From the NCBI GenBank assembly GCA_003565035.1, contig PXDP01000189.1, positions 1 to 33,212 on the forward strand: a DNA stretch of 33,212 nucleotides, read 5' to 3'. This document shows, piece by piece, positions 11,001 to 33,212 of this stretch (within the stretch, counting starts at the first letter, position 1; the number at the start of each line of letters is the position of its first letter). Origin of the DNA: PVC group bacterium (GTDB lineage: Bacteria > Verrucomicrobiota > Kiritimatiellia > SS1-B-03-39 > UBA6053). The notes below the pieces were generated by a model. The model made no database searches. It was not told the DNA's origin and saw only the letters and a list, made by a program, of their open reading frames with translations. Position numbers and translations under genes: made by a program.

Positions 11001-14000
11001 TGGCGTACACAAAATTAATCATGGCGAAGGGCGTTTGATTAAGAAACGAATAGAAGACGTTGAAATGCTAGGGGTTTTAAAAAGAACAACAAAGGATGAG
11101 TTTAATAAACTTTCTAAGCCAGCTATTATAGCTAGAGCATTAGAGATGCCTAGAACTAGAGAGTCAGCGGTAGAAAGAGTAAGAGAAGCAGCGCATGAAC
11201 TGGGTATGAGCGATAAAGCTTTTGATAAGTTAATGACATCTGTTTCTGATATACAAGAACAGTTTTTAGATACCTCTCTTAGAAAAGTTTTAATTGATCG
11301 TAAGATAGATGAAACACTGCCACAAGCAAAAAGCAAACACTTAAAAGAAATAATAGATATCTTCGAGTTTGGTATAATGAGCGAAGACAGGAAACAATAT
11401 CAAAGTTCTTTTGATGCCGCTCCGTTCAAAGTATTTACAACACCTGATGATGTTGATTATAGTTTTGTAATTAGAGACAGTAAGGGTACTATCACATCTA
11501 AAATAGAAAGCAGAGTAATGGCTGTTGTTGATAAACTACTAGACACTAAAGACAAAATTAATATTAAAGAGTTTGAAGACGGTCTTAAAGAAGAGTTTGG
11601 AAAAAATATGTATATTGCTAAAGAAGAAGGTGGGAAGATTACACCTATACCTTTAGACTCTTCAGAATTAAAAGAGATATATAAAGATATGTATACTCGA
11701 GCAATCGTAGGAAACATCATCAAACCTCGGGGAGATAAGACTGAGGCTTTTGTGATAAGTAAAATGCTAGATGATTCTACTAATTTTAGTAAACAAAGAA
11801 AAGCTAAACTACCAATAGAAAACTTAGAAGAGTACTATAGTATTGATGTGGAAACAGTTTTAGGTAAGAAGTTTCAAATAGGTACATATCGCGAAGACGA
11901 TATCAGAAGAGTAAGTGCTTCAATGAAAGAGTTCTCTGATGCAGAGATAAAAGATTTAACTGATCTTGTTACTAAGGAAGTTAACATTAAAAAAGAAATT
12001 GTAGCTAGACTAAATGATCCATTTTTAAAAAAAGCTTACAAAGATGGTGTATTAGATAAAGAGTATGAGGCGTGGGAAAGCGCACTTAGATCAGCGCTAC
12101 TAGATAAAAAGAAAGCTGATTTTGACCCAGAGATACTACGTATTATAAAAGACGAGAAACTCTTAGGCTATAACATTAAAGGATTTGACGCTGACTACTT
12201 AGGTGTAAAGTGGGATGACACTAAACATTTTGATTTAGAAGATTTTGCTAAACAAAATTTAATAGGGGAAAAGAAACTTTCATTAGGAGCTCTTGTAAAA
12301 CGTTTTGATGTACCTACTGAAGATGCGAGAGCACATGATGCAGGATACGATGCAGAGATGGTGAAACGTTTAATTCCTTATATAACAAAAAGTTTAAAAG
12401 AATCTGATGTATCACTTATTAATAATAAATTTTATAACTATATAGATGACGTATCTAAAAAAGTAGGATTACCTGCTAAACAAATTCGTGATATGATACT
12501 AGATTATAAGAAGAATAGTTTTAATAAAACTAAAACCGATGCTTCTGGTAAACAATCATTACCAGTCCCACCACACAAATATAAAGCACAGAACCCGTAC
12601 TTTACTCAAATATTAAATAGATATTTAGATTTGGAGAGAAAGTATACTCATACTAAAACATTAAGAGATATTCATAATCTAACATATAACAAAACTTCAG
12701 ATACCCTTAGACAACATATTAGACAAGGCGGCGCTAAGATGTATACACAAATGTTTAACTACTTAGCTTCTTTAAGTGATAACATGTTAATGGGGGATAA
12801 TCCTATAATATCTTCAATATTAAAACAAGCTTTTGTAAATCCACAATCGTTTGGAAAAGAACAGTGGGAAGATTATCTTAACCCTAAGAACTACTTAGAC
12901 TTTGAGAAATTATCTGCTGCTTTAAAGAAACATAATATTAATAAAAGCGCTGAGGAAATTAAAAAAGAATACCACAAAGCTTCACCTGTAGTAGATGAAA
13001 AGATAAAAGGTATTCTGGAAGGTAAAGGGTTTAATGAGTTAGAAGATATTAGAGAAACATTTATGAACTCTAATGCTAACTACTTATTAACACGAACTGC
13101 TGAAGTAGTAACTGCTTTATCTAATAAACTAAAGCTAGATGCCAGAGTAGCTAACGAACTATTCAACAGAGCTATTTCATTATATGATAAAACAATAGAT
13201 GACGCGGGGTACACCCAAGGATTACATTCTATGGATGCTTTAACCAAAGAGTTTATGGATACTATTCAAAATAGATTAGGTAAACTTAAAGTTAAAGCCA
13301 GCTATAATTTATGGGGAGAAGCAGAAACAAAAGAAGTCTTTGGTAAAATGCGTGATAATAAAGACTTACAAGCAGATGAAATAAGACTACCAAAAGACGT
13401 CGCAGATAAACTAAATTTCCAAGAGATAGTTGACGATATGGGTAATACACATAAAGTTGTATTATTAACAATCGATCCAGCTGTTATAGCAGGGGGTAGT
13501 GCAATAGTTCTTAAAGCTATTGTTGATCCTAAAACTAAATATGTTCAAGCTCACCCTAATATGGCTAAACAATTACAGCGTGACTTTGATGGTGATAGTG
13601 TTAGACTCATCGCTAATGGTGATACTAAAATGGCGCAGTTTATGTATGAGATATATAGAGCTAGTAACTCCGCTTTAAAAAGAATAGAGGGTACTTATAG
13701 ACAGCTAGATAAGTTTATTACACCTAAGTATAAAAAAGATTTTGTTGATGCTGATATTGATCACATCTATAAAACTGTAGATGTTGTGTCAAAAGACGAG
13801 TGGAATAAAGCACATCAAGCAAACTTAAATAAGATCAATAATATTGAGACAATAGAAGGCAGACGAGTTGAGATAGAAAAAATTAAGTCTCAAGACATGT
13901 ACATAGTAGATGATAAAAACATTTTTGATGAGTATACTCAAGTAATAAATGCTACTGGTAAAACGTTTAATAAAAATCCTTTCTCTAAACTTACTGAAGC

Positions 14001-17000
14001 AGATATTAAAAATCGTAATGTTAATATAGCTTTAAGTAAAGTAGCCAAACAAAATCACGATAGCTTCACCCAACATGTAGGGTATTTAAATAAAATGCAT
14101 ATGCCGTTTAACGAGAGTGTAGACAAACCTTTAATGAGTCTATATCGAAAAACTCTTGTTCTTTCTGATGTTGAAACAGCACAACTTAAAATGGCTTATC
14201 ATAAAGCTATTGAGTCAGGAAAGTTTGACGAGTTAGAAGGTATAATAACAAAAGGTTATGAGCTTACTGAAGATCGAAAATACTTTGAAAACTTTAAAGA
14301 CATTGCTACTATTAAAGCTGATATTGAAAATAAAACATTTGATGGGGTTGATGACTTTATAAACGCTTATCACCGTGGAATGCAAAGTTATGATGAGATG
14401 TTAAAAGCAAACGATACTTTTAATAAGAAAATAGTAGATGCTTATGCAGCGTACATTAAAGATAATGAGGATACTTTATTACATAAAGAAATAACAAACT
14501 TAAGTAATGCTATTAAAGACTTAATGGAAGTCAATGCTCACATGCACCCAGATTTTCTAGCTACTAAAACTACCAATCCTGGGTATGCTGTACAATTTTT
14601 AAGTCACGCTTTAAATCTGTATGATGATAGATATAACCCATTAACAGGAAGAACTCTTAAGCAAGTACATTCAGAGTACACTAAAGGCTTAGAAAAACCT
14701 GCAAGAGTTTTATATGTAGATATGGCTAAATTCGGTTTTACCGAAGATGCTATGTTCATGCGATCAACTTTCTTTAACAATCATCATATGTTTAAAGGAC
14801 ATTACCACGAAGTAGATCCTGAATGGGGTAGCACTAATATAAAAAAAGGTAAGCTTAAAACCTATGTTAATATAAAAGGCAAGGAAGTAAAAATACCAGA
14901 GACGCGAGGCGACATAGATATTATTGAAAAGAATGGCCGCTACTATATTAACTATGCTGAAGCAGATAGAAGTGAGATATATAAAACCGCTGGTATAAAA
15001 ACCCTTGGGAGTGTAGCTCCTAAAGGTAGCCTTGTTGAAAAACTTCTAATAAATAATAAAGCCGATATTATAAGAGACATTAAACTTTTCGATAAAAAGA
15101 AAGGACACGTCACTAATATTAAACATGAAGGACAAGCAGAAAAAGGCTTTATAACTACTGAGCCTACTATGTTTACCGTTGGTAACAAAACCGATAGAGA
15201 TAAACAACACTACGGGTTGTCTAGTAATAACTTTATTCAATCATTTGCTGATGGGCTAGAAGGATTATTATTAGGAAAACATTTCTATAGACTTAATGAT
15301 ACAGGTGATGGCCTGGTAAAAGATAATAGAGATTTTGTAGATATGGTTAATAACATTAGAGATTTAACTACAAGACCTTCTGGAAGTACATCTAACGCTA
15401 TTGGAGAATTAGATTTATTAAAGCTATTATATTTATCAGACTTACATGAAAAAGTATTTGGCTTTAGACCTGAGAATGGAGACCCTGAGAACTTAATGAG
15501 CCTACAGGGTCTAGGTACAAGAACTAGCGCCGGGTATATTAAAAAGTTATCTGATACTATTACACAAGATAAATCATTAGATACACTTTTAGAAGAACAT
15601 TATGGGGATGACCCTATAGTTAAGAGATTATTTTCTCCGCAAGTAACAGATAAAATAATTAAAAACACAGTAGGTCAAAGCACCATAGCAGAGCCTGATG
15701 GCGCTATTAGTAAATCTACTAAGTTAGTTGATCAAACCGAAGGAACTTTAAAATCAGGACAACACTTCTCTGATGAGGATACTTCTCCTCGTGGTGTATA
15801 TCCTAAGACTTCTTTTCTTGAAGATGTCTTAGGTGTAAAGAACTACGGTAATTATAAAGATGATGCCCTTAGAAACATCATACCATCTAACTCTTTACAC
15901 AGAGGTACGATGACAGATGGTTTTATTGCCGCTGTCGATAGACGATTACCAGACCCGCAACAACGTGACATGTATAATATTATTGCTGCTGATGAAAAAG
16001 CTGGTAGAGAAGCTAGCATCAATGCACTTACTAAAAATATGAATACCGAAGGGGCAAAACGTTCTATACCTGTAGGAGATCCAGATGGGTTTACTAAAAC
16101 TAGAACTGACAGTCTTGACTATGCTAATTATGTTGGAGACAAAAATACTAAAAAATTATTTGTAGGATACGGGGGCATTAAAGGTCAAGCTGCTTTATAT
16201 GATCTTGCCAGACAAGAAGGTGATTGGAGTAAAGACGATATGAGTATCGAAAGACACTTCAGACCTGAGGCTGATGAGTATATGAATAATTTTAAATCAA
16301 CAACACAAGTACTCGATGCAGAAATAACAAAAGACGGTTTGAACTTTAAGTATAATACTGAGGCAGAAGAGCCACAAAGAGTTGAGCAACTGCTTTCTGC
16401 AACAAAGAGCAAAGCTTTCTCAGCTAGATTATTTGATGAGTTAGACCAACAAAAACTAGCAGAGTTCTTTGTATCAGATGAAATACCTAGTATATTAAGA
16501 ACTCCTGGAGATTCTTTATATCAAAAAGTTTCTGCTTATCTAAAAGCAAACCCGCTTGAAAACATGTCTGACACTATGTACAAAACTAAATCTGAGATAT
16601 GGAAAACTAAACTTGCAATAGCAGACACCATAACAACTAAGGAAGGCGAAACTAAATACCATATCTTTAAAGGGAACGCTAGCTTATTAGAAGATGATGT
16701 TAAATCTAATCGAGCGTTATTAACTTCTTCTGGACTAGATGAAAAATCTGCTACAAGTATGAAAGCAGGGCGAGTAATAACTATGGCTCAAGATGCTGGT
16801 AATAAATTTACAGATCGAGCTATTAATTTAAATATTAAACTTCAGATGTTAGTACAATCATTAGAAGGTAAGGAAGACTTTGTAAAGTATATGAAAGCTA
16901 GCTGGGTAGAATCTCAACGCAAAGGCTTGCAACCATTAGGGGAAGACGCTAAAGCTGTTATGAATAGTCTAGGGTTTAAAACTTATGATGAGATGAAAAC

Positions 17001-20000
17001 TTGGGCAAAAGGTTTTGATGCTAACCACAAGGACTTGGTTAATACTTATATTGCTTACACTAAAGAGATAATAGCCCACGCTACTGAACTACAGCGATTA
17101 CAGGGTGAAGACTTTAATTCTTTCTTAATGATTGCACCTTTCAGAGGAGCTAAAGAAAATGTTAAAAACAAAGCCCGAGCAACTATTAAACAAGGTTTTA
17201 AACTTTGGAACAAACCAGAGGACTTATTGTTTGATCACACGATAGATGATTTCTTTGAAGCAACTAAATCTATCTTATCAAATATTAAAAAAGGTTATAT
17301 ATCAGAAGCATTTAAAGCTGGTCTTAAAAGTGAGGGGCTTCTTGATAATGAAAAAATACTAAACGCTTTATTACTTAAAGAAGACGACTTTGACTCTTTG
17401 ATAAAAGAGCATGTGAAAACTCTATCTTCTGTAGATTCAAAAGCTTTAAAAGATCAGTTAGATCAAATAGCTAGTCTAATTAAAACAACTGATAAGTCTG
17501 CATTATTACAAGCAAGACATAGCAATATAATAACTACAGAACATTTAACTGCAGTATATAAAACAATAATGCAAGAGTTAGATACATTGTCAAGATACAG
17601 TGATTTATCTGAAGATGATATCAAACTAAACTTATCTGACCCCGAGTTAAAACTAGGGGCAGAAAAGCTAGAAGCTACTAGAGCTTTAGAATTAAAAACA
17701 CAACTAGCTGGTTTTGTAGGAGATATAGCAAAAGAAAATCCTAAGATAGCTGAGGCATTATTTACCAAGCTATCTTCAGCAGCAGCTTCTGCTGGAAAAC
17801 ACGGAGCCCTTGTTGACGCTAATGGAAGACCTATAACAGAAAGAGGTGCTTTCGGTAGATTACGCCCTGACTCTAGTGAGTTTATTAAACAAGAGTTAAA
17901 ATACAAAGGAGAAAACAGTTTGCTATTTAAAATAAATGTTATTAGAGAAGCTGTTAAAGGTAATGTATATGTTGGACATGGTCAGTTGGGTAAAATATTA
18001 AACGAAGAAATATATACTAAGCAAACACACGCATGGCTAGAGACATTACGAAAAGGTGGTAAAACTACACAAGGATTAATCATGATGAACTTACTTAAGT
18101 TACCGATCCGTATGTTTAGTTTCTCAGCTTTCGATATAGCTATGATATCAACTGTAGATCCTAAAGCTGTGCTTAAGATACCTACTACCGTTAGATTATT
18201 AAAAGCGTACTATCAATCTGACGGACAGTATAGCACGCCAGAACTAGATGCTTATTTTGTACAAAAAGGTTTTGATTCGTTAACAGCTAGACAAAGAGAT
18301 GTTATCGTCGGAGAGGCTGATGCTTTTTCTAACATGAGTCCTCTAGCTGCACCTTATCGAGGGATGAAAGATTTATCTCGTTATGCTTTAGATATCCAGT
18401 CAGACTTCGGAAGACTTGCTTTATATCTTAGCTTAAGAGATAGGTTTGACGACGCTACTAAAAACGATTTCTACGGGCCGGCTTATTATAATAAAGCACA
18501 AGTAGATATACTTAAAGATATGACACCGGAAGAAGCCGAAAGAATGGGCTTTAAAAACAAACAAGGTAAATTAGTTACGCCAAAGGCTGCTGATAGAAAA
18601 GCTTATTATATAGTAGAACAATTACTAGGAAGCCCTGGTAACTTCCCTAAAATAGCTAAAGATTTAAGTGGGTTATTAGTGTTCAACACATTCCCGCTAG
18701 CTATTACTAGAGCAACCAAAGGGTATACAAGTAGTATATTAAAATCCGTAGGTGATTCTTTTAAAGGAGATACGAGGGGTTTATTTCAAAATACTGCTCC
18801 GTTAGGTTTAGGTCTTGCTGGTACGTGGTTAATGTATGAGCTGATAATGAATTTTATAGAGAGTTTATATGGGATGGAGGAAGACGATGTAGAAGATATT
18901 AAAAGTAAAATGCTTACACCAGATCCGATAGGTACATTATTATTAAACACACCTACTTTTAATTACAATTCATTCCACCCATTAATGATTATGGATGAAA
19001 TGCTTACACGACCCATCAGGGATGCTATGAATCAAGAGGATCCTGACATACCCAAATCTGTTGATGCTTTAATTAGATTATTAAACTCTAATGCAATATC
19101 AAGAGCTAATCCATTTTTAAAAATACCAGTTGAGGTACTAGCACAAAAAGATTTATTCGGTAGCGATATTATAGATACTAAACACAGTTATAATATGTTT
19201 GAAAATACTGTCCGAAAAGTTGCGGGAATACCTTTAGGTATGGGAATGAGCAGAGCTTTAGTAGAAGGCTATCAGTTACAGAAGTATAATGATAACACAG
19301 CTATGCAAAATATCTTGTCATCTGTAGAGAGCGGCATTAAGAATGAACTTAATGCTAGTAGAGCATATAATAAATCTAGACAAAACTATTATAAAGGTCG
19401 AGGGATGATATCTAACTACAGAGCTACCATGAGAGAAGAAACAGAAGCTAGCTGGGAAGCTGCTGACTTATATAATGGAGAAATTAAAACCAATAGATTT
19501 AACAGCGGATATGATAGGGAAGAATATAAAGTAGCTCGCGGAGTTTTAAACAAACTAATACGTCAAGAGAGACCTATGTCGGAAATAGATGCTGCTATAC
19601 TAGATTTGATTGACCCATATGGTAAATATAAATTGTCACCAGATAGTGTACAAGCTGTTATTAATACCTTGTCACTACAGGCAAGATTTGAGGGCTTAAA
19701 AGACCCAGACCATTTCTTATCTACCTTGACTGATACGGAAAGACGACAGTTTGAGGAAGGGCTTTTATGGGAGCAACAAAACTTCCCATTGTTATCAGAA
19801 ATATCAATAGGTGGTAACGAGCCATATAAAAGAACTCCTTACCTTAATAGACATTATGGGGGTTATAGCAATAGATATTCTGGAGCAGGCCGCGTTCCAT
19901 ATATAAAGAAAGGTTATTATCGCTCACCTTATAGAGATCTAGAAAGAGGTGAATGGAATCAAGTTAAAGTAATCGGGCCATCTGACAAGATGGGTATATG

Positions 20001-20010
20001 GGAAAAATAA
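5023..20010 (+). CDS. giant multidomain phage protein (4995 aa): putative virion-associated single-chain DPBB RNA polymerase with DEDDh exonuclease domain
   Basis: Uninterrupted 4995-codon ORF, SD AAGGAGG before the ATG. Contains HPNMAKQLQRDFDGD (beta'-like catalytic motif), SIDVET/GYNIKGFDADYL/AHDAGYDA (DEDDh motifs), N-terminal Gly/Ala-rich hydrophobic segments and a C-terminal hydrophobic segment GLGLAGTWLMYELIMNFI. Lies directly upstream of terL. Confidence 0.75.
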   Translation: MDEKRFDLEDKPRASSMLDDEIRRLKEQNTYDDSVKTAQEEAAEAFVLNVTPQEAGPLERKQVITDDIAKQFHTIKQEFGSYTNYYKQNNNQHFPGYEAIGAEYLNKEHKDREYAEYVETGIITEEEFLRKHYVGDILKDAGHNVTSRAYWYNKLMSGDGTSPLTNKYTMHKAYEVARGMYEAQSIAQAHKRAQEGTLELSAESLFGEKITGEDFARLFGVPEGSDPDELLRSYKQLGYIATEMEEAIAPILQDADGTVYGYLHRSGVLYSVGEDDEAYRAMYDEANNVQYLRAQGGEIRGGLVTFADSLLAGAVNFVGTLGQIIGTGVWGIGSLAVEAADKEKSLGEGFMNAYSVIEAFKHGEDLHRLTSSKFVDLSGEWNAMRVADGIAGLVGTVAGMKATFGASAALNAASRGAIAAGKGAGVKHLAWSGAQKASNVTMKMTGIYSGRWGGVSPSQVMNNPQMMGLQTAKGALAKKGGVATAKSATELLTQVRTASAKNHVALISTYGAKDFIDNAGYMLMRADLDDSFAATFGDTEEEQRSEIYRRAAGVAIFNMGVSAIFTGGIDDSPSRRMALFAGGRAQTDKAATKILSKYVSGERWRLFADFGADSIDNIVTMTLNQAVKQEGEGSPEAFIRSLNPHTIGMGLYMAGVTAKGSQRFALEAGGATLGRTKKEIDNYIDGRINSAKTPEERSSFNTIKQELQKTYQDVLSGKEVTIGSDTFKHVDDKGEPIKDMTIHASIAYVRQAETLFRAEEMRGFVNKGLDDVRLAVFRELDETTTRNLLAVERDLATMTKGILGEGAKPYFREMFKNIASGGTRTSNRKMISNIQNTLKISNEAVFSAAFGDITRDVTPTDLGKALDAGDTQRLTNGMEGVRLNTDIPEGELLATVIKHLFPEADVRVEVLEDKTYLGVADYSLHARADILNRVRDIALEVNSLRGATPELDLRKTLQSMYERRYGEDATSKSPIDARAANMRDLIQALVDSKLLTIDQAAELFGAAAAEGETKRLFQHEYLKNMTAGEKDIKLKDIKEANETLRLVNQFVHKNVGAKEVPESEIKAAKATLGQLYDNDGTLKPAVRHILNDKPQLEDFLLDMQKMIKEAELDPRVLPQLLNRLLATSSASYKEDPEITKTIGKFFTTEDPDSILRQVTANDDWEVNNVYIDVGSFSTKLMNNLHRGLLDYLSTPDNINKTVTDYLNTSDVKADTLGAKQLVMLDYIKQGLNASGTPYLKFTKDEAEGFARNMGYRSLADMNKHTGVFYYASSPFSIDVKLDRDSRIALDVQKHKIVTTDATPDELAKQLSNGVINLSGDDVINITRISGDVLTARSVDARGLEAEGLKTERTAFKSAIVAGKKGESDTMIVLNSPRYNVDFEDASYYKGTQLFDMLDKLNEGSVVSTFKDDVSFYKETIKKQLGKKTLGPKGIEKYFGADSPWDATVDSETITFKFNRAKYDKIKKSFNAGELNKTNIFKFLPSDLTEREVGKDYGNQAGYQIGSVPAIRSTILDFTKLITNWYDTTNNKVTGYKDITISNKKFVRDPEVFNNIKTMGVKVDDLIAELKSKLMVDKKRNAYVQDMLNRLEIAKAPKEYTNKLSDRVNKLLASQTIIDMLLKEDISDSLVKKINNMQAPKGSVSKELEEDKNIINIEDGEYQAAAQIFRNVELHPTIKDVTLKELQAAKDYLTNNKETHNKVESIDVGIGGLAIFKFGNSLKIPIEKLAKLTDEELTFLRELDPDIDKKRKEIIKEFYNITDEDLLKPSGAAPKLLDFTQVSKAQSFWKGFGHPEQIKQWAENHFNNKIFINKAKHYLFHNLNNTKMGENFDKDIFETMWKGLINLSDEFKHVINPKAIRSYNLDTEAGQKMFINHVGMTMKTLKDLINESMSLDDTGRVKRSAEDTDIFMDNLLKSAVTIVLNNKGGASYNQTKNAFLIDTVGTNAGKIILHSRNDSDFNAKIIMTKAEDLDGKILLSPKAGTYERFSVPEFGVHKINHGEGRLIKKRIEDVEMLGVLKRTTKDEFNKLSKPAIIARALEMPRTRESAVERVREAAHELGMSDKAFDKLMTSVSDIQEQFLDTSLRKVLIDRKIDETLPQAKSKHLKEIIDIFEFGIMSEDRKQYQSSFDAAPFKVFTTPDDVDYSFVIRDSKGTITSKIESRVMAVVDKLLDTKDKINIKEFEDGLKEEFGKNMYIAKEEGGKITPIPLDSSELKEIYKDMYTRAIVGNIIKPRGDKTEAFVISKMLDDSTNFSKQRKAKLPIENLEEYYSIDVETVLGKKFQIGTYREDDIRRVSASMKEFSDAEIKDLTDLVTKEVNIKKEIVARLNDPFLKKAYKDGVLDKEYEAWESALRSALLDKKKADFDPEILRIIKDEKLLGYNIKGFDADYLGVKWDDTKHFDLEDFAKQNLIGEKKLSLGALVKRFDVPTEDARAHDAGYDAEMVKRLIPYITKSLKESDVSLINNKFYNYIDDVSKKVGLPAKQIRDMILDYKKNSFNKTKTDASGKQSLPVPPHKYKAQNPYFTQILNRYLDLERKYTHTKTLRDIHNLTYNKTSDTLRQHIRQGGAKMYTQMFNYLASLSDNMLMGDNPIISSILKQAFVNPQSFGKEQWEDYLNPKNYLDFEKLSAALKKHNINKSAEEIKKEYHKASPVVDEKIKGILEGKGFNELEDIRETFMNSNANYLLTRTAEVVTALSNKLKLDARVANELFNRAISLYDKTIDDAGYTQGLHSMDALTKEFMDTIQNRLGKLKVKASYNLWGEAETKEVFGKMRDNKDLQADEIRLPKDVADKLNFQEIVDDMGNTHKVVLLTIDPAVIAGGSAIVLKAIVDPKTKYVQAHPNMAKQLQRDFDGDSVRLIANGDTKMAQFMYEIYRASNSALKRIEGTYRQLDKFITPKYKKDFVDADIDHIYKTVDVVSKDEWNKAHQANLNKINNIETIEGRRVEIEKIKSQDMYIVDDKNIFDEYTQVINATGKTFNKNPFSKLTEADIKNRNVNIALSKVAKQNHDSFTQHVGYLNKMHMPFNESVDKPLMSLYRKTLVLSDVETAQLKMAYHKAIESGKFDELEGIITKGYELTEDRKYFENFKDIATIKADIENKTFDGVDDFINAYHRGMQSYDEMLKANDTFNKKIVDAYAAYIKDNEDTLLHKEITNLSNAIKDLMEVNAHMHPDFLATKTTNPGYAVQFLSHALNLYDDRYNPLTGRTLKQVHSEYTKGLEKPARVLYVDMAKFGFTEDAMFMRSTFFNNHHMFKGHYHEVDPEWGSTNIKKGKLKTYVNIKGKEVKIPETRGDIDIIEKNGRYYINYAEADRSEIYKTAGIKTLGSVAPKGSLVEKLLINNKADIIRDIKLFDKKKGHVTNIKHEGQAEKGFITTEPTMFTVGNKTDRDKQHYGLSSNNFIQSFADGLEGLLLGKHFYRLNDTGDGLVKDNRDFVDMVNNIRDLTTRPSGSTSNAIGELDLLKLLYLSDLHEKVFGFRPENGDPENLMSLQGLGTRTSAGYIKKLSDTITQDKSLDTLLEEHYGDDPIVKRLFSPQVTDKIIKNTVGQSTIAEPDGAISKSTKLVDQTEGTLKSGQHFSDEDTSPRGVYPKTSFLEDVLGVKNYGNYKDDALRNIIPSNSLHRGTMTDGFIAAVDRRLPDPQQRDMYNIIAADEKAGREASINALTKNMNTEGAKRSIPVGDPDGFTKTRTDSLDYANYVGDKNTKKLFVGYGGIKGQAALYDLARQEGDWSKDDMSIERHFRPEADEYMNNFKSTTQVLDAEITKDGLNFKYNTEAEEPQRVEQLLSATKSKAFSARLFDELDQQKLAEFFVSDEIPSILRTPGDSLYQKVSAYLKANPLENMSDTMYKTKSEIWKTKLAIADTITTKEGETKYHIFKGNASLLEDDVKSNRALLTSSGLDEKSATSMKAGRVITMAQDAGNKFTDRAINLNIKLQMLVQSLEGKEDFVKYMKASWVESQRKGLQPLGEDAKAVMNSLGFKTYDEMKTWAKGFDANHKDLVNTYIAYTKEIIAHATELQRLQGEDFNSFLMIAPFRGAKENVKNKARATIKQGFKLWNKPEDLLFDHTIDDFFEATKSILSNIKKGYISEAFKAGLKSEGLLDNEKILNALLLKEDDFDSLIKEHVKTLSSVDSKALKDQLDQIASLIKTTDKSALLQARHSNIITTEHLTAVYKTIMQELDTLSRYSDLSEDDIKLNLSDPELKLGAEKLEATRALELKTQLAGFVGDIAKENPKIAEALFTKLSSAAASAGKHGALVDANGRPITERGAFGRLRPDSSEFIKQELKYKGENSLLFKINVIREAVKGNVYVGHGQLGKILNEEIYTKQTHAWLETLRKGGKTTQGLIMMNLLKLPIRMFSFSAFDIAMISTVDPKAVLKIPTTVRLLKAYYQSDGQYSTPELDAYFVQKGFDSLTARQRDVIVGEADAFSNMSPLAAPYRGMKDLSRYALDIQSDFGRLALYLSLRDRFDDATKNDFYGPAYYNKAQVDILKDMTPEEAERMGFKNKQGKLVTPKAADRKAYYIVEQLLGSPGNFPKIAKDLSGLLVFNTFPLAITRATKGYTSSILKSVGDSFKGDTRGLFQNTAPLGLGLAGTWLMYELIMNFIESLYGMEEDDVEDIKSKMLTPDPIGTLLLNTPTFNYNSFHPLMIMDEMLTRPIRDAMNQEDPDIPKSVDALIRLLNSNAISRANPFLKIPVEVLAQKDLFGSDIIDTKHSYNMFENTVRKVAGIPLGMGMSRALVEGYQLQKYNDNTAMQNILSSVESGIKNELNASRAYNKSRQNYYKGRGMISNYRATMREETEASWEAADLYNGEIKTNRFNSGYDREEYKVARGVLNKLIRQERPMSEIDAAILDLIDPYGKYKLSPDSVQAVINTLSLQARFEGLKDPDHFLSTLTDTERRQFEEGLLWEQQNFPLLSEISIGGNEPYKRTPYLNRHYGGYSNRYSGAGRVPYIKKGYYRSPYRDLERGEWNQVKVIGPSDKMGIWEK
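11845..12400 (+). other. DEDDh (DnaQ-like) 3'-5' exonuclease domain inside the giant ORF
   Basis: ExoI SIDVET (D2275,E2277), ExoII LLGYNIKGFDADYLG (D2389), ExoIII ARAHDAGYDAEM (H2438,D2443; H-x4-D). Confidence 0.75.
13370..13620 (+). other. beta'-like RNAP catalytic double-psi-beta-barrel segment inside the giant ORF
   Basis: LPKDVADKLNF...LLTIDPAVIAGGSAIVLKAIV...VQAHPNMAKQLQRDFDGDSVRLI; DFDGD at nt 13582-13596 (D2854, D2856, D2858). The H-to-first-catalytic-D spacing (10) matches the bacterial beta' IQLHPLVCAAYNADFDGD motif. Confidence 0.75.
14980..15240 (+). other. candidate beta-like DPBB segment inside the giant ORF
   Basis: TLGSVAPKGSLVEKLLINNKADIIRDIKLFDKKKGHV...FTVGNKTDRDKQHYGLSS resembles bacterial beta ILVGKVTPKG...EKLLRAIFGEKASDVKD...LQVGDKMAGRHGNKGVVS by eye. 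Confidence 0.35.
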
Positions 20011-20025
20011 TAAGGAGGAGATCAC

Positions 20026-21600
20026 ATGGGCAAAACTCTAAATGTAATACCTAACTATAGACCCCATAAAAAGCAGGTGCTTCTACATAATGCACCTGTG
20101 TCATTTGATAGTTTATCCATTGTCTTATATGGGGGAACTCGTGGAGGAGGGAAGAGTGCAGGCATCTTAGCTGATGCCTTCCTTTTCTGCACCACATATC
20201 CAGGAGCTAAAGTATGTATTATTCGTGAAACGTTAGATGCTGTTAAGCAATCATTCTTAGATAAACTACCTACATTATTTCCACAAGAAATTGATGGTCA
20301 TAAGATATATGAGTATAGAGAAAAAAGCTCAAGCATCGTAGCACCACTATCCCGATCAGTTGTTTTTCCTAACGGCTCTTATATAACTTTTCAACGTGTT
20401 GCTAACTATGCTGAAGCAGAAGCAAAACAAGGTTGGGAGTTTCATTACTTAGCTATTGACGAAGTAACTAAGCAACAAGAAAAAGCAGTAATGTATTTAT
20501 TATCTACTGTTAGATCAGTTGAAGTAGATAATCCATATACCAAACAAAAACTTCAGATACCTACTAAAGTAGTATTCGGGTGTAACCCTGGAGGTGTTGG
20601 GCACAAGTGGGTTAAAGAAAAATACATTGATACAACTGTTACTAAGTATGACCCAGAAACAAATGCGCCTATTCAAACAAAAGATTATCAACAAACATTT
20701 AAAGACCCTGTAACTAAAAAAGATATTATATGTAATGTAAGATTCATACCAGCATCGTGGCGAGATAACCCATATCTTAGTGACGCGTATCTTATCCCTC
20801 TTAGTATGCAAACAGAAACTAAAAGGAAAATGGATATGGATGGTAACTGGGATATCGTAGCTGGTAAAATGTTTGAAGTATCTGAAGAACATATTGTCAG
20901 TAAGTTTGAAATTAGAGATATTCTAGAGAACCCTAAACTTATTAAAGATATTTACGTAACTATTGATTGGGGCTTTAGACCATCCTTTCATAGTGCTATC
21001 TGGGTAATGGTTTTACAAAACGGGAGATCCATTGCCTTTAAAGAAATATATGGGCAAGACTTAGTCTTTGAAGAATTTGTAGCGGAGATAAAACATATAT
21101 CTTCTTATTATGATATCACTAGCACACTCCTTCCTCATGATATGTTTAGACACGGAGACAACTATCGAAACAGTGAAGGTAAAATAATAGGAGAAACTAA
21201 AGCAGATGTCTTTGAATATCACGGTTTAAACCCTATACCTATTGAGTCTGGTAAAGGTACTGTTGACTTTAGGTATGATAAAATACATTCTTCTTTTGTA
21301 ATAAGAGATGAGGAAGATAATGAGTTTAGACACCTTATAGGTGAAAACGTAAGTAATTTACTTGATGAGTTAGAGCACGCTGTTCATGATGATAATGGTA
21401 CAGGACGTATCGCAGCTAGTTGTGCCGAGCATGCTATAGATGCTTATGGGTTGTTTCTAGTATTTTATAGCTCAGATATTGCACCTATTAGTTTAGAAGA
21501 TTATAAAGTAGACTTACGACCTCGCTTACAAAAAAGAATAGAAGACGAAGAAGAAGCACTTGATAGCGGGTACCACGACACCGATGCATATGATTTATAA
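20026..21600 (+). CDS. terL: terminase large subunit
   Basis: Walker A YGGTRGGGKS, Walker B-like HYLAIDE, nuclease-like VTIDWGFRPSF and LPHD; position before portal and MCP. Confidence 0.95.
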   Translation: MGKTLNVIPNYRPHKKQVLLHNAPVSFDSLSIVLYGGTRGGGKSAGILADAFLFCTTYPGAKVCIIRETLDAVKQSFLDKLPTLFPQEIDGHKIYEYREKSSSIVAPLSRSVVFPNGSYITFQRVANYAEAEAKQGWEFHYLAIDEVTKQQEKAVMYLLSTVRSVEVDNPYTKQKLQIPTKVVFGCNPGGVGHKWVKEKYIDTTVTKYDPETNAPIQTKDYQQTFKDPVTKKDIICNVRFIPASWRDNPYLSDAYLIPLSMQTETKRKMDMDGNWDIVAGKMFEVSEEHIVSKFEIRDILENPKLIKDIYVTIDWGFRPSFHSAIWVMVLQNGRSIAFKEIYGQDLVFEEFVAEIKHISSYYDITSTLLPHDMFRHGDNYRNSEGKIIGETKADVFEYHGLNPIPIESGKGTVDFRYDKIHSSFVIRDEEDNEFRHLIGENVSNLLDELEHAVHDDNGTGRIAASCAEHAIDAYGLFLVFYSSDIAPISLEDYKVDLRPRLQKRIEDEEEALDSGYHDTDAYDL

Positions 21601-21604
21601 CCAA

Positions 21605-21633
21605 TTGAGTGTTTATTAATTATATGCTATAAT
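21605..21633 (+). promoter_or_regulatory. sigma70/sigmaA-type promoter TTGAGT-N17-TATAAT with extended -10
   Basis: TTGAGT 21605-21610, TGC TATAAT 21625-21633, upstream of the 21656 ORF. Confidence 0.7.
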
Positions 21634-22328: not shown

Positions 22329-24236
22329 ATGAAAGAAAAACCTACAAAGATGGTAGACTACATAGACCACTTTATACAAGATGCACAGCATAAAGCTCAA
22401 CCTTTTATTATATCGGGAATTTTAAATAGAGAATATTTAAAAGGTGCCCAACATAAAATGGTAGATCCACAGAAGATGGTTATAACTAATAAAGTTAATA
22501 CTCCTAATGTGTATTTGGAACGAAAGATATTTAATAAAATGTTGCCTATCTACCTTTCTAGGTATGGTATATTATCTGGGAGTAGACCTATTCCTGGATT
22601 TAAAGCAACTACAAATCAATCTCTATCTATTACAGGAGCACTAGAAGGAAACAATTTCATAACAGCTATTTCTAAAGAAATAGGATATAAAGAAAAATAT
22701 GATCAAGCTATAAAGCTTGGCGATGTTGATGGTATTGTATGGGTTAAGACTGGTATTGATTGGACTAAGGGAGATTTAATATCTACCAAAACTACCACTA
22801 ACGCAGAAACTGGAGAGAAAGTAGATATTAAAATTAACGAGGGGAGACCTTTTATTGATATTATTCCTATCCACGAAGTACTAATAGATAACTTTGCAAT
22901 AACCTCGCCGGATAAAATAAATGAATTAGTATATAGACGACCATACTCATGCGACTTTATAGAAAAGCGTTTTGGGTTTAGGCCACCTAAAGAAGATATA
23001 ACAGGTAACTTAACTACCCACCCTTATTATTTGGAATTAGGTTTTGGTATGCGACAAGGGAAAGACATGGAGTATGCTTATGTAGTAGAATATTACAAGA
23101 AACCAGACCCTCTTTATCCTAAAGGACGATACATTTTAAAAACAGGTAGTCATATATTACATGACGGTGTCTTACCTTTTGTAAATAAAATGGATGGGGA
23201 AAGAAAAATACCTTTTGTACCAATATCTTTAATGAATATACCCGGGCACATAATAAGCCCTACAGTATACAACCAAATTATTCCGATGCAAGATACATAT
23301 AACTCTGTTAAGAATAGATTATTAGAGTATATTAATCATATAGCTATTGGTCAATTATATTATTGGGAAGGCTCTTTAATTAATAAAGATAGCATAACTA
23401 ATAAACCTGGTAGAATGATAGGACTTAAGCGACATTCAAAAGCTCCACAACCTGTGGAGAAATCGCGTATAGGTTCAGAGATAGTTACATATCTAGAAGG
23501 CATCAGCTCTGATATGCTTATAACCGCAGGACTTTCTGAGTTACAGGCATATGGTATTAGTAAAAGTAATATGAGAACTGATGGTGTGGTTGATAAAATA
23601 TCAGAAAGCGATGATAATAAACTTACTAATGCTATAGATAATCTATCTATAGGGATTATAGAAATATTTAAACAACTCTTATATGTAGAAAAACAGCGAC
23701 GCAAAATATTGACAGAAGAGTATGGGGTTGCCAAAGCAGATAAGTATATGCTAAAATATAACTTAGATGAAGTAGACCCAGAAGAATTAGATATTGTAAA
23801 CAGAGAATATTTAAAAAACTCTGATATAATATTAGAGAAGAAAATAACACAAGCAGCTAGTCTTGGAGTATACAATCCTGAGTTAAACCTATCTTACAAA
23901 TCTAAATTAGAAATTTTAAATTCAGTAAATTGTGGATACTTACAAGATACTCTTGATCCTACACAACGTGTTAATTATGAATTAATACAGTGGGAACAAG
24001 AAGAGTTCTTAAACCTACGAGCACCTATCGTAGAAGAGTTCCAAGATCATGAACAACATATCGCGGAACATAATATTTTTAGGTTATCTCCTCTTTTGCA
24101 AAAGCTTAAGAGTAAAGATATAGATAGATATGATAAGGTAAGAGAGGCGCTGGACCATCATATCGGTAATCATCAACAATTAGTTGAGAACACAGCGCAC
24201 AACACAGATCTTGAAAATGCCAAGGCATATCTATAA
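22329..24236 (+). CDS. portal protein
   Basis: 635-aa ORF between terL and scaffold/MCP; content such as PIHEVLIDNFA, VYNQIIPMQDTYNSVKNRLLEYINH and AGLSELQAYGISKSNMRTDGVVDKISESDDNKL is consistent with podoviral portals. Confidence 0.85.
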   Translation: MKEKPTKMVDYIDHFIQDAQHKAQPFIISGILNREYLKGAQHKMVDPQKMVITNKVNTPNVYLERKIFNKMLPIYLSRYGILSGSRPIPGFKATTNQSLSITGALEGNNFITAISKEIGYKEKYDQAIKLGDVDGIVWVKTGIDWTKGDLISTKTTTNAETGEKVDIKINEGRPFIDIIPIHEVLIDNFAITSPDKINELVYRRPYSCDFIEKRFGFRPPKEDITGNLTTHPYYLELGFGMRQGKDMEYAYVVEYYKKPDPLYPKGRYILKTGSHILHDGVLPFVNKMDGERKIPFVPISLMNIPGHIISPTVYNQIIPMQDTYNSVKNRLLEYINHIAIGQLYYWEGSLINKDSITNKPGRMIGLKRHSKAPQPVEKSRIGSEIVTYLEGISSDMLITAGLSELQAYGISKSNMRTDGVVDKISESDDNKLTNAIDNLSIGIIEIFKQLLYVEKQRRKILTEEYGVAKADKYMLKYNLDEVDPEELDIVNREYLKNSDIILEKKITQAASLGVYNPELNLSYKSKLEILNSVNCGYLQDTLDPTQRVNYELIQWEQEEFLNLRAPIVEEFQDHEQHIAEHNIFRLSPLLQKLKSKDIDRYDKVREALDHHIGNHQQLVENTAHNTDLENAKAYL

Positions 24237-24291: not shown

Positions 24292-24942
24292 ATGACTGTA
24301 GAAGAACTAGAGCAACAGCTCGCTGAGACACAGGCAAAGCTAGACGCTAGCGAAAAAACAAACAAAACACTAGAGGCTAACCAATCTAATCAAAACTCTT
24401 ACATCACTAAACTAGAAGAAACTAAAAGTGCATTGACTGAACAGATAAACTCTATTAAGAGTACTGCTAACTCGCCTGCACTTGATCCGAACATCACTGC
24501 TTACTTCAAGAAGAAATACGTAGAAGACTTTGAAAAAGATGGGATAGCAGAAATCATTAGTCGCGATACTAAGGGAGTATTTCCTAAGGTAGAAGCAGAG
24601 CTAAGAAGTTTCTTAAAGGCACATATGACCGAGAACAACGCATCACTTAAGTTTGTGTTAGACGCATATTCTCTAGTGTTAGGGAGAGCTTACGCTGACC
24701 CAGAACATGAGATTCATAAAGTAGATGAGCCTACTCCAACTGAAGGAGAACCAACAGAACCTCCAGCAGATAAAGGAGTTCCGTCTAACATACATGAACC
24801 TATTCCACCAACGCTAACTGATAGTGACCCAGCTTCTGGCAACCCAGTACCAAGACCTCAAGTTGAAGTACGGAATACAAAAGAAGCCTTTAAAGTATTT
24901 GAAGACAGATTATTTAAACAAGGTCAAGACAAGTATGAATAA
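24292..24942 (+). CDS. putative scaffold / capsid assembly protein
   Basis: N-terminal coiled coil (VEELEQQLAETQAKLDASEKTNKTLEAN), acidic Pro-rich C-terminal half, directly upstream of MCP. Confidence 0.75.
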   Translation: MTVEELEQQLAETQAKLDASEKTNKTLEANQSNQNSYITKLEETKSALTEQINSIKSTANSPALDPNITAYFKKKYVEDFEKDGIAEIISRDTKGVFPKVEAELRSFLKAHMTENNASLKFVLDAYSLVLGRAYADPEHEIHKVDEPTPTEGEPTEPPADKGVPSNIHEPIPPTLTDSDPASGNPVPRPQVEVRNTKEAFKVFEDRLFKQGQDKYE

Positions 24943-24964: not shown

Positions 24965-26260
24965 ATGATTAAAATGACAAATTTTAACGTCTCTCAGGCA
25001 ATCGAAGATTTCTTAAAGATTGAGTATACTGATGGATTAACTAACGAGTTTAACACAATGGAAGCTTTAATCAATCAATTCGGTAAAGAAGATTTAAAAG
25101 GAAAATATAAAACGAAAAGTTTTGCATTAGGTGTTACTGATAACATCCGTGCATTAGGTAAGTCTAACGATACTTATGTATTAGGTGTTAACGACTATAC
25201 TAATGGTGCTGATACTGTTGAAGCTCAGTTCGATACAACTAAATTATTAGGTGTATTCGCTATTACTGACGAAGCAATAGTAAAAGGTACAACTGATGGA
25301 AGCATCTTTAATGTCTTACAAGATTCATTACAAAGAATGCAATTAGGTCTTAAGCATACGATTAATCGTTATGGTTATGGATCAGCTTCTGGTAAAATAG
25401 GTGTTGTAAGTTCACAAGTTGCTACTGATGCAGATTTCTTAGGCACTGGCCGTAACATGTATGAAATCAAAATGACTAACTCTCATAGTGTTCTACCTGG
25501 TATGGGCTTATTACTAAGAAAAGATGGCTCAAATTATATCACTTGCCGAATATTTGATAAAACTAATAGTTCAGTACATGATGAAACAGTTCGTGTAGTT
25601 GAAATTGCAGCAGCTTCAGATGGTACTGTAGATTTATCTTCAGATACTGTAGAAGTATATGCTCGTCAATTAGATCCTACAGCTGCTGTTAAAGCAGAGT
25701 ATACTGGATTAGAAGATATTGTTATGACTCAAAATAATACCATCTTCAATGTTGATCGTTCTGTTTACAAGGCTCTTAACTGTACAGTTGAGGACTTAGA
25801 AAGCGAAATAATCACAGAAGAAAAATTAAGAGATATGTCTGACCACGTTGAATTATCTAACTCAGACGGTGCTGTTATTGATTTAGTAGCGTCTAACCAC
25901 AGAATCATTTCTAGTATCGAGAAACAATTATATCAATTTAAACAATATGATATGGATAGTTCAAAAGGCGAGTTTGGTTTAGGGCGACCTAAAGTTAAAT
26001 TCGACAACTACTCATTGTTTAAAGATAAGTATTCTCGCGACGCAAATATCTATATGTTAGACACTAAGAAAATCTATGAATTAACTCGTAAAGACTTTGG
26101 TTGGTTAACTAAAGGCGGAGCGGCTGGCATCTTAGAGCGTAGAGACGGATCAGAAATCTATGAAGGTATCATGACTAAGTATGCAGATTTAGCGGTTGAG
26201 AGCTTTAAAGCTCACGCTGCATTTAAAAATGTTGCGCACGAAGTAGCTACCTCAGAGTAG
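24965..26260 (+). CDS. major capsid protein
   Basis: 431-aa ORF after scaffold; HK97-fold-like sequence character; position and terminator after it. Confidence 0.85.
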   Translation: MIKMTNFNVSQAIEDFLKIEYTDGLTNEFNTMEALINQFGKEDLKGKYKTKSFALGVTDNIRALGKSNDTYVLGVNDYTNGADTVEAQFDTTKLLGVFAITDEAIVKGTTDGSIFNVLQDSLQRMQLGLKHTINRYGYGSASGKIGVVSSQVATDADFLGTGRNMYEIKMTNSHSVLPGMGLLLRKDGSNYITCRIFDKTNSSVHDETVRVVEIAAASDGTVDLSSDTVEVYARQLDPTAAVKAEYTGLEDIVMTQNNTIFNVDRSVYKALNCTVEDLESEIITEEKLRDMSDHVELSNSDGAVIDLVASNHRIISSIEKQLYQFKQYDMDSSKGEFGLGRPKVKFDNYSLFKDKYSRDANIYMLDTKKIYELTRKDFGWLTKGGAAGILERRDGSEIYEGIMTKYADLAVESFKAHAAFKNVAHEVATSE

Positions 26261-26264
26261 AAAT

Positions 26265-26290
26265 AAAGGAGCAGCAATGCTCCTTTTTAT
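26265..26290 (+). terminator. rho-independent terminator after MCP
   Basis: AAAGGAGC-agcaat-GCTCCTTT followed by T-rich tail. Confidence 0.85.
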
Positions 26291-26313
26291 TTTATTAAAA
26301 GGAGGATAAAGTA

Positions 26314-26889
26314 ATGGATATATATCAAGAAAGATATTTAAAACATCAACATAATAAAACAACTAATATGTATAAATTCATTGGAGAAGAGAAACTACAT
26401 TACACTCCTCAAGAAATAGACACACTATTTAAAATACTTAATAACAGAAGAAGTCAACGAAACTTTACTAAACAAAATATAAAACTTGATGTGTTAAAAA
26501 CAATAGAGCAAAGTATTGCTTTAAACCCCTCTAGCTGTAATCGAAAAAGTATTTATGGTGTGTGGATTACACCAGAAGGAATAGATCAGTATCTAGTAGG
26601 AGCTAAAGTATGGGCACCTAAAGCTAACAGTATACTATTATTATTCGCAGCAAAGGAGGCTTATAAAAGTCCTAATGAAAAAGCTTTTATGCCTTATCTA
26701 GATGGAGGCTTCGTAGCGCAAACATTATATTTAGTATGTGAAGTATTGGGTATAGGTGCTTGTTTTATAAACCCTAACCTTGTTAAAGAAAATGCTGAAG
26801 AGTTTACATTAATGTATGGTGAAGATTATTTTGTAGGAGCTTTTGCTTTAGGTAACTATGATTATAAAGCAAAGAACCCAAACCTTTAA
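26314..26889 (+). CDS. nitroreductase-fold (FMN-type) protein
   Basis: LNNRRSQRNFTKQ..., NPSSCNRKSIYGVWI, and DGGFVAQTLYLVCEVLGIGACFINP match the nitroreductase-family pattern. Confidence 0.8.
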   Translation: MDIYQERYLKHQHNKTTNMYKFIGEEKLHYTPQEIDTLFKILNNRRSQRNFTKQNIKLDVLKTIEQSIALNPSSCNRKSIYGVWITPEGIDQYLVGAKVWAPKANSILLLFAAKEAYKSPNEKAFMPYLDGGFVAQTLYLVCEVLGIGACFINPNLVKENAEEFTLMYGEDYFVGAFALGNYDYKAKNPNL

Positions 26890-26902
26890 AGGAGGATTAT
26901 TT

Positions 26903-27739
26903 GTGAAAGATATAACTGTTTATACCATTGTATATAACAAATACGGTAAGTTTATAAAAAAATGGGTGAAGATGTTAAAAAAACAAACTGTTGTACCTAA
27001 TATACTTATAGTTTTAGGACACGATCATGGTGCCGATTTAGATTGGTTAAAGAAAAACAACCTTAATTATATATACTACGATAGTGATAACATGGGGAAA
27101 CTAAGAAACATAGGCCTACAAGAAATAAAAACCACTTGGTGGTTATATTTTTCAGTCGATGATTTATTATATCCTCACGCGTGTGCTGAAATAGTAAATA
27201 CTAACGCACCGGCTATATCTATATTATTTGATGTAGAGTCACCTGAAAAAGTAATATCTTACGAACAGCTATCACCTTGTTTTCAATCTTTAAAAGATCT
27301 AAGCGAGTGGAAAAAATTTAAATGGGGAGGATATATAGCTCTTAAAAACAAAGATATTAAGTTTAGAGAAGATGTAGAAGTACCTAATATGCTATACCAC
27401 TTAGATCTATTTAAAGCGGGGATAAAACCCGTGTTTAGTAAATCAAGCTTAGGCTTACACCAACGAAGATTAGACTCTCATCACTATAAATCAGAAAAAA
27501 ATGGTTCGCGTATACCCATACAAAAAACAATTTCTAAAGAAATATCTAATTATTTAAATAAAACCTTAGGTAATAATCTAAAAAGATTAGTGTGTATCAA
27601 ATCCTATAAAGACCTTGAGACAAATAGAATTATAGCTAAAGGCCAAATAATAAACTTAGCTTATAAAAGATCTCGAAAACCTCTCACGCTATTTAGAAAA
27701 AAAGAACTAATAGATAAAGGAAAAGCTAAAATTGTCTAG
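26903..27739 (+). CDS. glycosyltransferase family 2-like protein
   Basis: Start re-assigned to GTG 26903 with AAAGGAGG upstream. VYTIVYNKYGKFIKKWVKMLKKQTV, NMGKLRNIGLQEIKTTWWLYFSVDDLLYPHA (acidic DD after a hydrophobic strand) fit a GT-A fold. Confidence 0.7.
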   Translation: MKDITVYTIVYNKYGKFIKKWVKMLKKQTVVPNILIVLGHDHGADLDWLKKNNLNYIYYDSDNMGKLRNIGLQEIKTTWWLYFSVDDLLYPHACAEIVNTNAPAISILFDVESPEKVISYEQLSPCFQSLKDLSEWKKFKWGGYIALKNKDIKFREDVEVPNMLYHLDLFKAGIKPVFSKSSLGLHQRRLDSHHYKSEKNGSRIPIQKTISKEISNYLNKTLGNNLKRLVCIKSYKDLETNRIIAKGQIINLAYKRSRKPLTLFRKKELIDKGKAKIV

Positions 27740-27758
27740 TCGACTAGACAGTTTTTTT
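27733..27758 (+). terminator. rho-independent terminator overlapping the GT stop codon
   Basis: Perfect palindrome TGTCTAGTCGACTAGACA followed by G and T7; stop TAG lies in the stem. Confidence 0.85.
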
Positions 27759-27759
27759 A

Positions 27760-27768
27760 TGCTATAAT
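27760..27768 (+). promoter_or_regulatory. extended -10 promoter TGCTATAAT
   Basis: Immediately after the terminator T-tract and upstream of the 27786 ORF; TCGACT at N17 as a possible -35. Confidence 0.6.
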
Positions 27769-27785: not shown

Positions 27786-28160
27786 ATGAACGAAATACTT
27801 AGGTTTTACAAGGAGCTTCGGCTTGTCAATATAGGAAATATTTCCACTAGATTACTACGAGAAACTAATGGGGATACTTTTCTAGCTTATAATATTTTAA
27901 GAGACACCTACGAAGTACACTCTATTAATTCCTTTAAACATAATAGGATGTCGTGTAATGGAGTAATAGAAGTAGAAAATATTAACCAGGAGTTAATTGA
28001 AAATATTAAAGTAAACAATATTAAAAAGTTCGGAGACCAAATCCTTTCTAGACGAGAATACTTGGAAAATTTACTAGACCAACATGATAATTTTAAAGAA
28101 GAGCAACTGTATAAAAAAGGACATAAAATGATTAAACAATCATTAGGGAGGGAAATATAA
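27786..28160 (+). CDS. hypothetical protein (124 aa)
   Basis: Supplied ORF with AAAGAGG SD, head-completion region. Confidence 0.75.
   Translation: MNEILRFYKELRLVNIGNISTRLLRETNGDTFLAYNILRDTYEVHSINSFKHNRMSCNGVIEVENINQELIENIKVNNIKKFGDQILSRREYLENLLDQHDNFKEEQLYKKGHKMIKQSLGREI

Positions 28161-31558: not shown

Positions 31559-33212
<1,654 letters not shown>

Follow-up and report, generated by a model that had tools for sequence, protein, structure and literature searches.

Glycosyltransferases are commonly annotated in phage genomes, and the targets of these enzymes are seldom known. In mycobacteriophages, such enzymes decorate capsid or tail-tube subunits (Freeman 2023, as cited in PMC12619734). 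In Clostridioides difficile, the gene next upstream of bclA3 encodes SgtA, an O-GlcNAc transferase of the GT-A type that modifies threonine residues in the GPT collagen repeats of BclA3 (PMC7157674). The locus described here lies in a window that is an entire contig of 33,212 bases (C141) from a 526-contig genome bin, and it resembles both systems in part. Its glycosyltransferase is phage-encoded as in mycobacteriophages, and a GT-A enzyme is encoded near a collagen-like surface protein with GPT repeats as in the SgtA-BclA3 system, which differs from the window in being an adjacent gene pair, in acting on the spore and in having no flavoenzyme. We know of no nitroreductase partner for the phage glycosyltransferases that glycosylate virions, and no report of a nitroreductase-glycosyltransferase pairing in phages was found among open-licence papers. 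The cassette of the window, made of one gene of each kind, reads best as a glycosylation module of a phage, combined with a viral flavoenzyme that had so far escaped remark.

Organization of the contig

The contig carries a tailed-phage late block and ends inside the collagen-like gene; megablast of the window against 50,697 phage records returned no similar sequence. The terminase (TerL, 20026-21600) and the portal (22329-24236) are supported by PHROG matches and are followed by a probable scaffold gene (24292-24942) and by the gene of the major capsid protein (MCP; 24965-26260, forward strand; PHROG 9953 major head protein, E=4e-5), which forms the left flank of the insertion. On the right flank lies gp124 (27786-28160, forward strand), the first gene of the neck unit, with homologues in four relatives (L002-L005), and the order 3' of the cassette is gp124, gp255, gp868 and the collagen-like gene (31559-33211, forward strand; PF01391, E=9e-31). 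The latter, rich in GPT repeats, open at the contig end and a candidate acceptor, is found about 3.8-4 kb downstream of the cassette.

Upstream of TerL, a single forward-strand open reading frame of 4,995 aa (5023-20010) gave no match in Pfam. It carries a DFDGD motif resembling that of multisubunit-type RNA polymerases and one stretch that reads as DnaQ-type exonuclease-like, and homologues of its C-terminal part, with 24-27% identity, lie upstream of TerL in L002, L003 and L005. Two neighbouring paralogous small genes (MKVSSLDKG...) on the reverse strand (1240-1781) are an apparent tandem duplication.

The two enzymes of the cassette

The first gene (NTR; 26314-26889, forward strand), preceded by a ribosome-binding site AGGAGG at 26300-26305, encodes a 191-aa protein of the FMN nitroreductase superfamily which belongs, according to Pfam, its model and its homologues, to a virus-enriched family. 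The nitroreductase fold claimed in an earlier note on this DNA was borne out by a match to PF00881 (E=2e-11, 44.8 bits for a cut-off of 23.5), by an AlphaFold2 model of the alpha/beta FMN-binding fold (pLDDT 95.2, pTM 0.89) and by Foldseek, in which this model gave 194 PDB matches at E<=0.001, the 50 listed being nitroreductase-superfamily flavoproteins. With described members of the superfamily (PF00881; NfsA/NfrA/YcnD, BT_1316), NTR shares significant profile and structure matches, the fold and the FMN-site motifs RxSxRxF, PSSxN and a late glycine strand, these motifs being intact in the window protein. On the other hand, identity to the solved nitroreductases among the Foldseek matches listed is about 13-22%, and NTR differs from these by an N-terminal YQxRYLxHQ helix, by the MPYLD and NPN motifs, by an invariant cysteine in PSSC[ND]R (isoleucine in YcnD), and by the presence of the family on viral contigs. 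An LVGxxxW motif completes the family set, and the positions invariant in 48 sequences are Q5, Y8, H11, R49, S74, C75, R77, L94-G96, W100, Y117, M126, P127, D130, N153, P154 and G180. The window protein is 32-48% identical to its viral relatives and is divergent in having LVGAKVWAPKA in place of LVGGxGWIHRA.

A query made from a two-sequence alignment found the family on 13 viral contigs, and one made from a ten-sequence alignment on 56 uncultured viral contigs, while 85,462 species genomes yielded six contigs only, some of them possibly viral. Among 50,697 isolate phage records, the queries tried found no homologue except a weak match to L007, and across 289 host-phylum genomes the window protein scored 212 bits and the next best match 70. 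Since pattern-based scans can miss divergent members, the family is more firmly described as virus-enriched than as virus-only. A single viral origin was considered and is unsupported, the cellular homologues attaching at two points of the tree on long branches. In one bin (Bacterium isolate M50B98), NTR is accompanied by glycosyltransferase genes on two different contigs, L077 and L078, four related GT2 genes standing in a run upstream of NTR in L077. Contigs L079, L080 and L081, from Saccharibacteria and Micrarchaeota bins, carry NTR with glycosyltransferase-like genes nearby; they may come from viruses that infect ultra-small cells or have been binned wrongly.

The second gene (GT; 26903-27739, forward strand) encodes a 278-aa glycosyltransferase of the GT-A/GT2 type, an assignment that rests on its fold, PHROG 9549 and its homologues. 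The ATG at 26858 proposed by the ORF finder was replaced as start by the GTG at 26903, since this codon stands behind an AGGAGG site (26890-26895, forward strand), and the alignment of homologues agrees. No match over the cut-off was obtained between the window protein and Pfam GT2; it matches the PHROG 9549 glycosyltransferase family (E=4e-7), and its homologue in L031 matches PF00535 (E=5e-8). The model (pLDDT 80, with low confidence in a C-terminal extension of about 60 aa) has a GT-A fold and was matched by Foldseek to RmlT, TarP, chondroitin polymerase and TarS at E values of about 1e-9 to 1e-8, with about 3e-9 for RmlT and TarP. The GT2-like fold read in the earlier note is thus confirmed by the model and the PHROG match. 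Among 12 aligned homologues D86 is invariant and D87 nearly so, a DXD-like acidic motif for metal and nucleotide sugar is present, and N69 is conserved among homologues. The GT2 fold and the conserved aspartate pair together point to sugar transfer from a nucleotide donor.

Transcription signals around the cassette

Both terminators, both genes and the promoter box reported previously were recovered at the same positions. Terminator 1, between MCP and the cassette (26265-26296, forward strand), is a 9-bp hairpin (26265-26286, -12.3 kcal/mol) with an interrupted T tail, TTATTTTATT, and terminator 2 (27728-27755, forward strand) is a 12-bp hairpin (-11.9 kcal/mol) followed by T7. Directly 3' of terminator 2 stands the extended -10 promoter of the neck transcription unit, TGCTATAAT (27760-27768, forward strand). 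The only other copy of this box in the window, between TerL and the next gene (21625-21633, forward strand), probably shares one promoter class with it. Terminator-like sites numbered 12 in the scanned region versus 5.4 +/- 2.3 in shuffles.

The interval from the MCP stop to the NTR start (26261-26313) yielded no promoter site, which makes read-through from the MCP transcript the simplest route of expression; terminator 1 is probably leaky, so that the cassette would be transcribed through it. Such read-through would allow NTR and GT to be made in step with MCP and in lower amount. As no promoter of the cassette was found, its time of expression is taken from its position.

The site without the cassette in relatives

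Four viral contigs (L002-L005) encode MCPs about 60% identical to that of the window. A profile scan for closer relatives returned the same four contigs only, and genomes from the same order gave none. All four keep the order TerL, portal, scaffold, MCP, gp124, gp255 and gp868 without NTR or GT, the gp124 homologues (33-40% identical) lying directly after MCP. Scans of the whole contigs with the NTR profile and with PF00535 gave no match. The earlier note had proposed comparing related phages for presence or absence of the two genes, and its view of the pair as an insert came through this comparison, MCP being followed by a gp124 homologue in each relative.

In the MCP-gp124 gap of the relatives there is one hairpin, then at least six T and a TTATAAT or ATATAAT box, and the promoter at 27760 has the same position and core as theirs. 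This single terminator with its TATAAT promoter in contigs devoid of the cassette indicates that terminator 2 and the promoter behind it are ancestral, belonging to the transcription unit that follows and not to the insert, which corrects the earlier note on this point. With this pair as the old boundary, NTR, GT and hairpin 1 would have been added between it and the MCP stop, a direction of change that we infer; alternatively, the same elements may have been lost in all four relatives.

The NTR-GT pair is a presence/absence cassette and not a strict moron. The comparison with a typical moron, made in the earlier note, holds in that extra genes accompanied by a terminator lie between neighbours that adjoin in relatives, as in lambdoid morons. 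It fails in that the cassette, unlike these, has no detected promoter of its own, the one at 27760 being ancestral and directed at gp124, and no foreign base composition (GC 0.31 for NTR and 0.30 for GT versus 0.30-0.35 for the flanks).

Cellular relatives of NTR in polysaccharide clusters

The nearest cellular homologues of NTR by profile include a long type of about 315-395 aa with a PS[AV]CNRQ motif, and many of them adjoin glycosyltransferases, flippases or apparent polysaccharide pyruvyl transferases, these neighbour names having been assigned by sequence inspection. The homologues located in surface-polysaccharide clusters (L007, L209, L212, L214, L218, L222, L224, L226, L227 and L235) are like viral NTR in this motif, in a P-Y-I-D-G motif (L007) and in the company of glycan enzymes, and unlike it in their length, in an N-terminal extension and in being cellular. 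Annotated nitroreductases are also contained in Klebsiella cps loci (PMC4616057). Record L007 (MT835768.1), matched by the NTR profile with E=1.8e-12 over 149 columns, is filed as 'Bacteriophage sp.' and reads as a bacterial exopolysaccharide cluster with a flippase, glycosyltransferases, a pyruvyl transferase and a nitroreductase; it is probably mislabelled. To our knowledge, no function has been assigned to the nitroreductase-like proteins of surface-polysaccharide clusters. Their location is the main independent reason for considering that NTR acts on glycans.

The same location favours the main rival to a virion target, namely that the pair alters a cell-surface polysaccharide of the host, as in O-antigen conversion, and thereby blocks superinfection. 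Consistent with it, the best structural matches of GT (RmlT, TarP and TarS) are wall-teichoic-acid or surface-glycan transferases, and three neighbour proteins at other NTR loci match PHROG 841, a GtrB-like family of O-antigen conversion. However, in the window and on several other contigs the pair lies inside the late structural block, which is late for exclusion, and no membrane partner of the GtrA/GtrC type was seen in the window, so that modification of the host surface is considered rather unlikely.

Linkage of NTR to glycosyltransferases

The immediate same-strand neighbour of NTR is a profile-recognised glycosyltransferase (GT2, GT4, GT32-like, Stealth and PHROG 3408 being counted) in 33 of 52 distinct loci, and the Pfam tally of 76 neighbour proteins is headed by the GT2, GT7C, GT4, DXD sugar-binding and GT1 models. 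PF00535 (GT2) was found on 19/45 NTR contigs versus 2/50 random viral contigs, the latter drawn by 14-mer and unmatched for habitat, host and length. Within contigs, 25 of 42 PF00535 matches lie at most 1.5 kb from NTR (3.8 expected), and this clustering is independent of the random set and thus unaffected by its lack of matching. Homologues of the window GT itself stand directly beside NTR in L023, L031, L039, L060, L077 and L078. Among the 19 loci without a profile-recognised glycosyltransferase neighbour, several are at contig ends, six have a neighbour family that looks like a glycosyltransferase and is confirmed by no profile, and those with no such neighbour of any sort include L024, L034, L048, L050 and L069. 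An unannotated family (FGWRxEPEWLV...SPDERWED) is repeatedly found beside NTR (L053, L054, L057, L063 and L074). This 'WRWEPEWLV' neighbour family, glycosyltransferase-like by eye, matched PHROG in 0/4 proteins tested, had an hhalign probability of 8% and was left uncounted.

The NTR-GT pairing is therefore real, beyond chance and more general than could be seen from the window. The cargo, called unusual for a head module in the earlier note, is so for isolate databases, yet dozens of uncultured viruses carry the same pairing. Of the window proteins tested, none but NTR and GT had a homologue in L007-L020, so the pair has moved between phages or arisen repeatedly. Its genomic place recurs as well: GT of the window is within the structural block between MCP and the neck genes, of the 11 NTR contigs with a recognised SU10-type adaptor, eight have it no more than about 3.5 kb downstream of NTR, and P22-type coat proteins are among the immediate neighbours of NTR. 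The adaptors close downstream and the coat neighbours indicate that a slot between shell and neck has been used repeatedly.

These results bear on the possibility that NTR shares its slot with GT by chance, being either a detoxifying auxiliary gene or a flavin reductase of general use. Nitroreductases are widespread in bacteria, and a nitroreductase-domain protein has been listed among the auxiliary metabolic genes of hydrothermal viruses (PMC10159854), but independent cargo is unlikely given a glycosyltransferase linkage far over expectation in otherwise dissimilar viruses and a near absence from cellular genomes not expected of a general enzyme. It is very unlikely that GT glycosylates modified phage bases which NTR helps to make or reduce: phage glycosyltransferases are known to hypermodify DNA (Pyle 2024, as cited in PMC12619734), but base-modification enzymes were not recognised in the window, GT resembles protein and polysaccharide transferases, the partners elsewhere (GT4, GT32, Stealth, methyltransferase) are typical of glycan assembly, and the pair is located in head modules. 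A role in anti-phage defence or counter-defence was dropped, PADLOC giving no match.

Proposed role of the cassette

The best reading, to which a probability of about one half is given, is that of a late module decorating the virion with glycans, in which NTR contributes a redox step. That NTR and GT share one pathway is likely from their linkage and from the cellular relatives; a virion target, as against the host or DNA, is about as likely as not and is suggested by the position in the late block. In this mechanism, the GT2 enzyme would move a sugar from a nucleotide-sugar donor onto a structural protein of the phage. The acceptor would most likely be the adjacent capsid or the collagen-like protein, at Thr/Ser residues of its GPT repeats, and NTR, as a predicted FMN-dependent oxidoreductase, would carry out a redox step on the sugar, the carrier or the acceptor in the same pathway.

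Glycosylation of the virion or of the collagen fibre, as guessed in the earlier note, is plausible and has circumstantial support. It is the analogy with SgtA and BclA3 that makes the GPT-rich collagen-like protein a candidate acceptor. A collagen match over the cut-off is present in the window and absent in the cassette-free L002-L005, a comparison of one genome with four that is anecdotal. Collagen enrichment was considered as support for this acceptor and rejected, such genes being on 8/45 NTR contigs versus 6/50 random ones; collagen-like genes being not enriched, this protein is one possibility only, and a doubtful one, among acceptors.

Through the NTR family, dozens of uncultured viral contigs stand out as likely builders of glycans, and these results suggest that the viruses carrying it put a chemically altered sugar on some target, probably on their own particles. 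The family has apparently been overlooked, as the queries tried found it in no isolate phage record and as very few genomes contain it. Should the linkage be functional, it would point to a redox step in the making of virion glycans. More tentatively, virus-specific flavoenzymes may put redox modification into the virion glycans of many unrelated tailed phages, a chemistry so far undescribed. The cellular relatives suggest that a similarly unassigned enzyme is present in bacterial capsule clusters.
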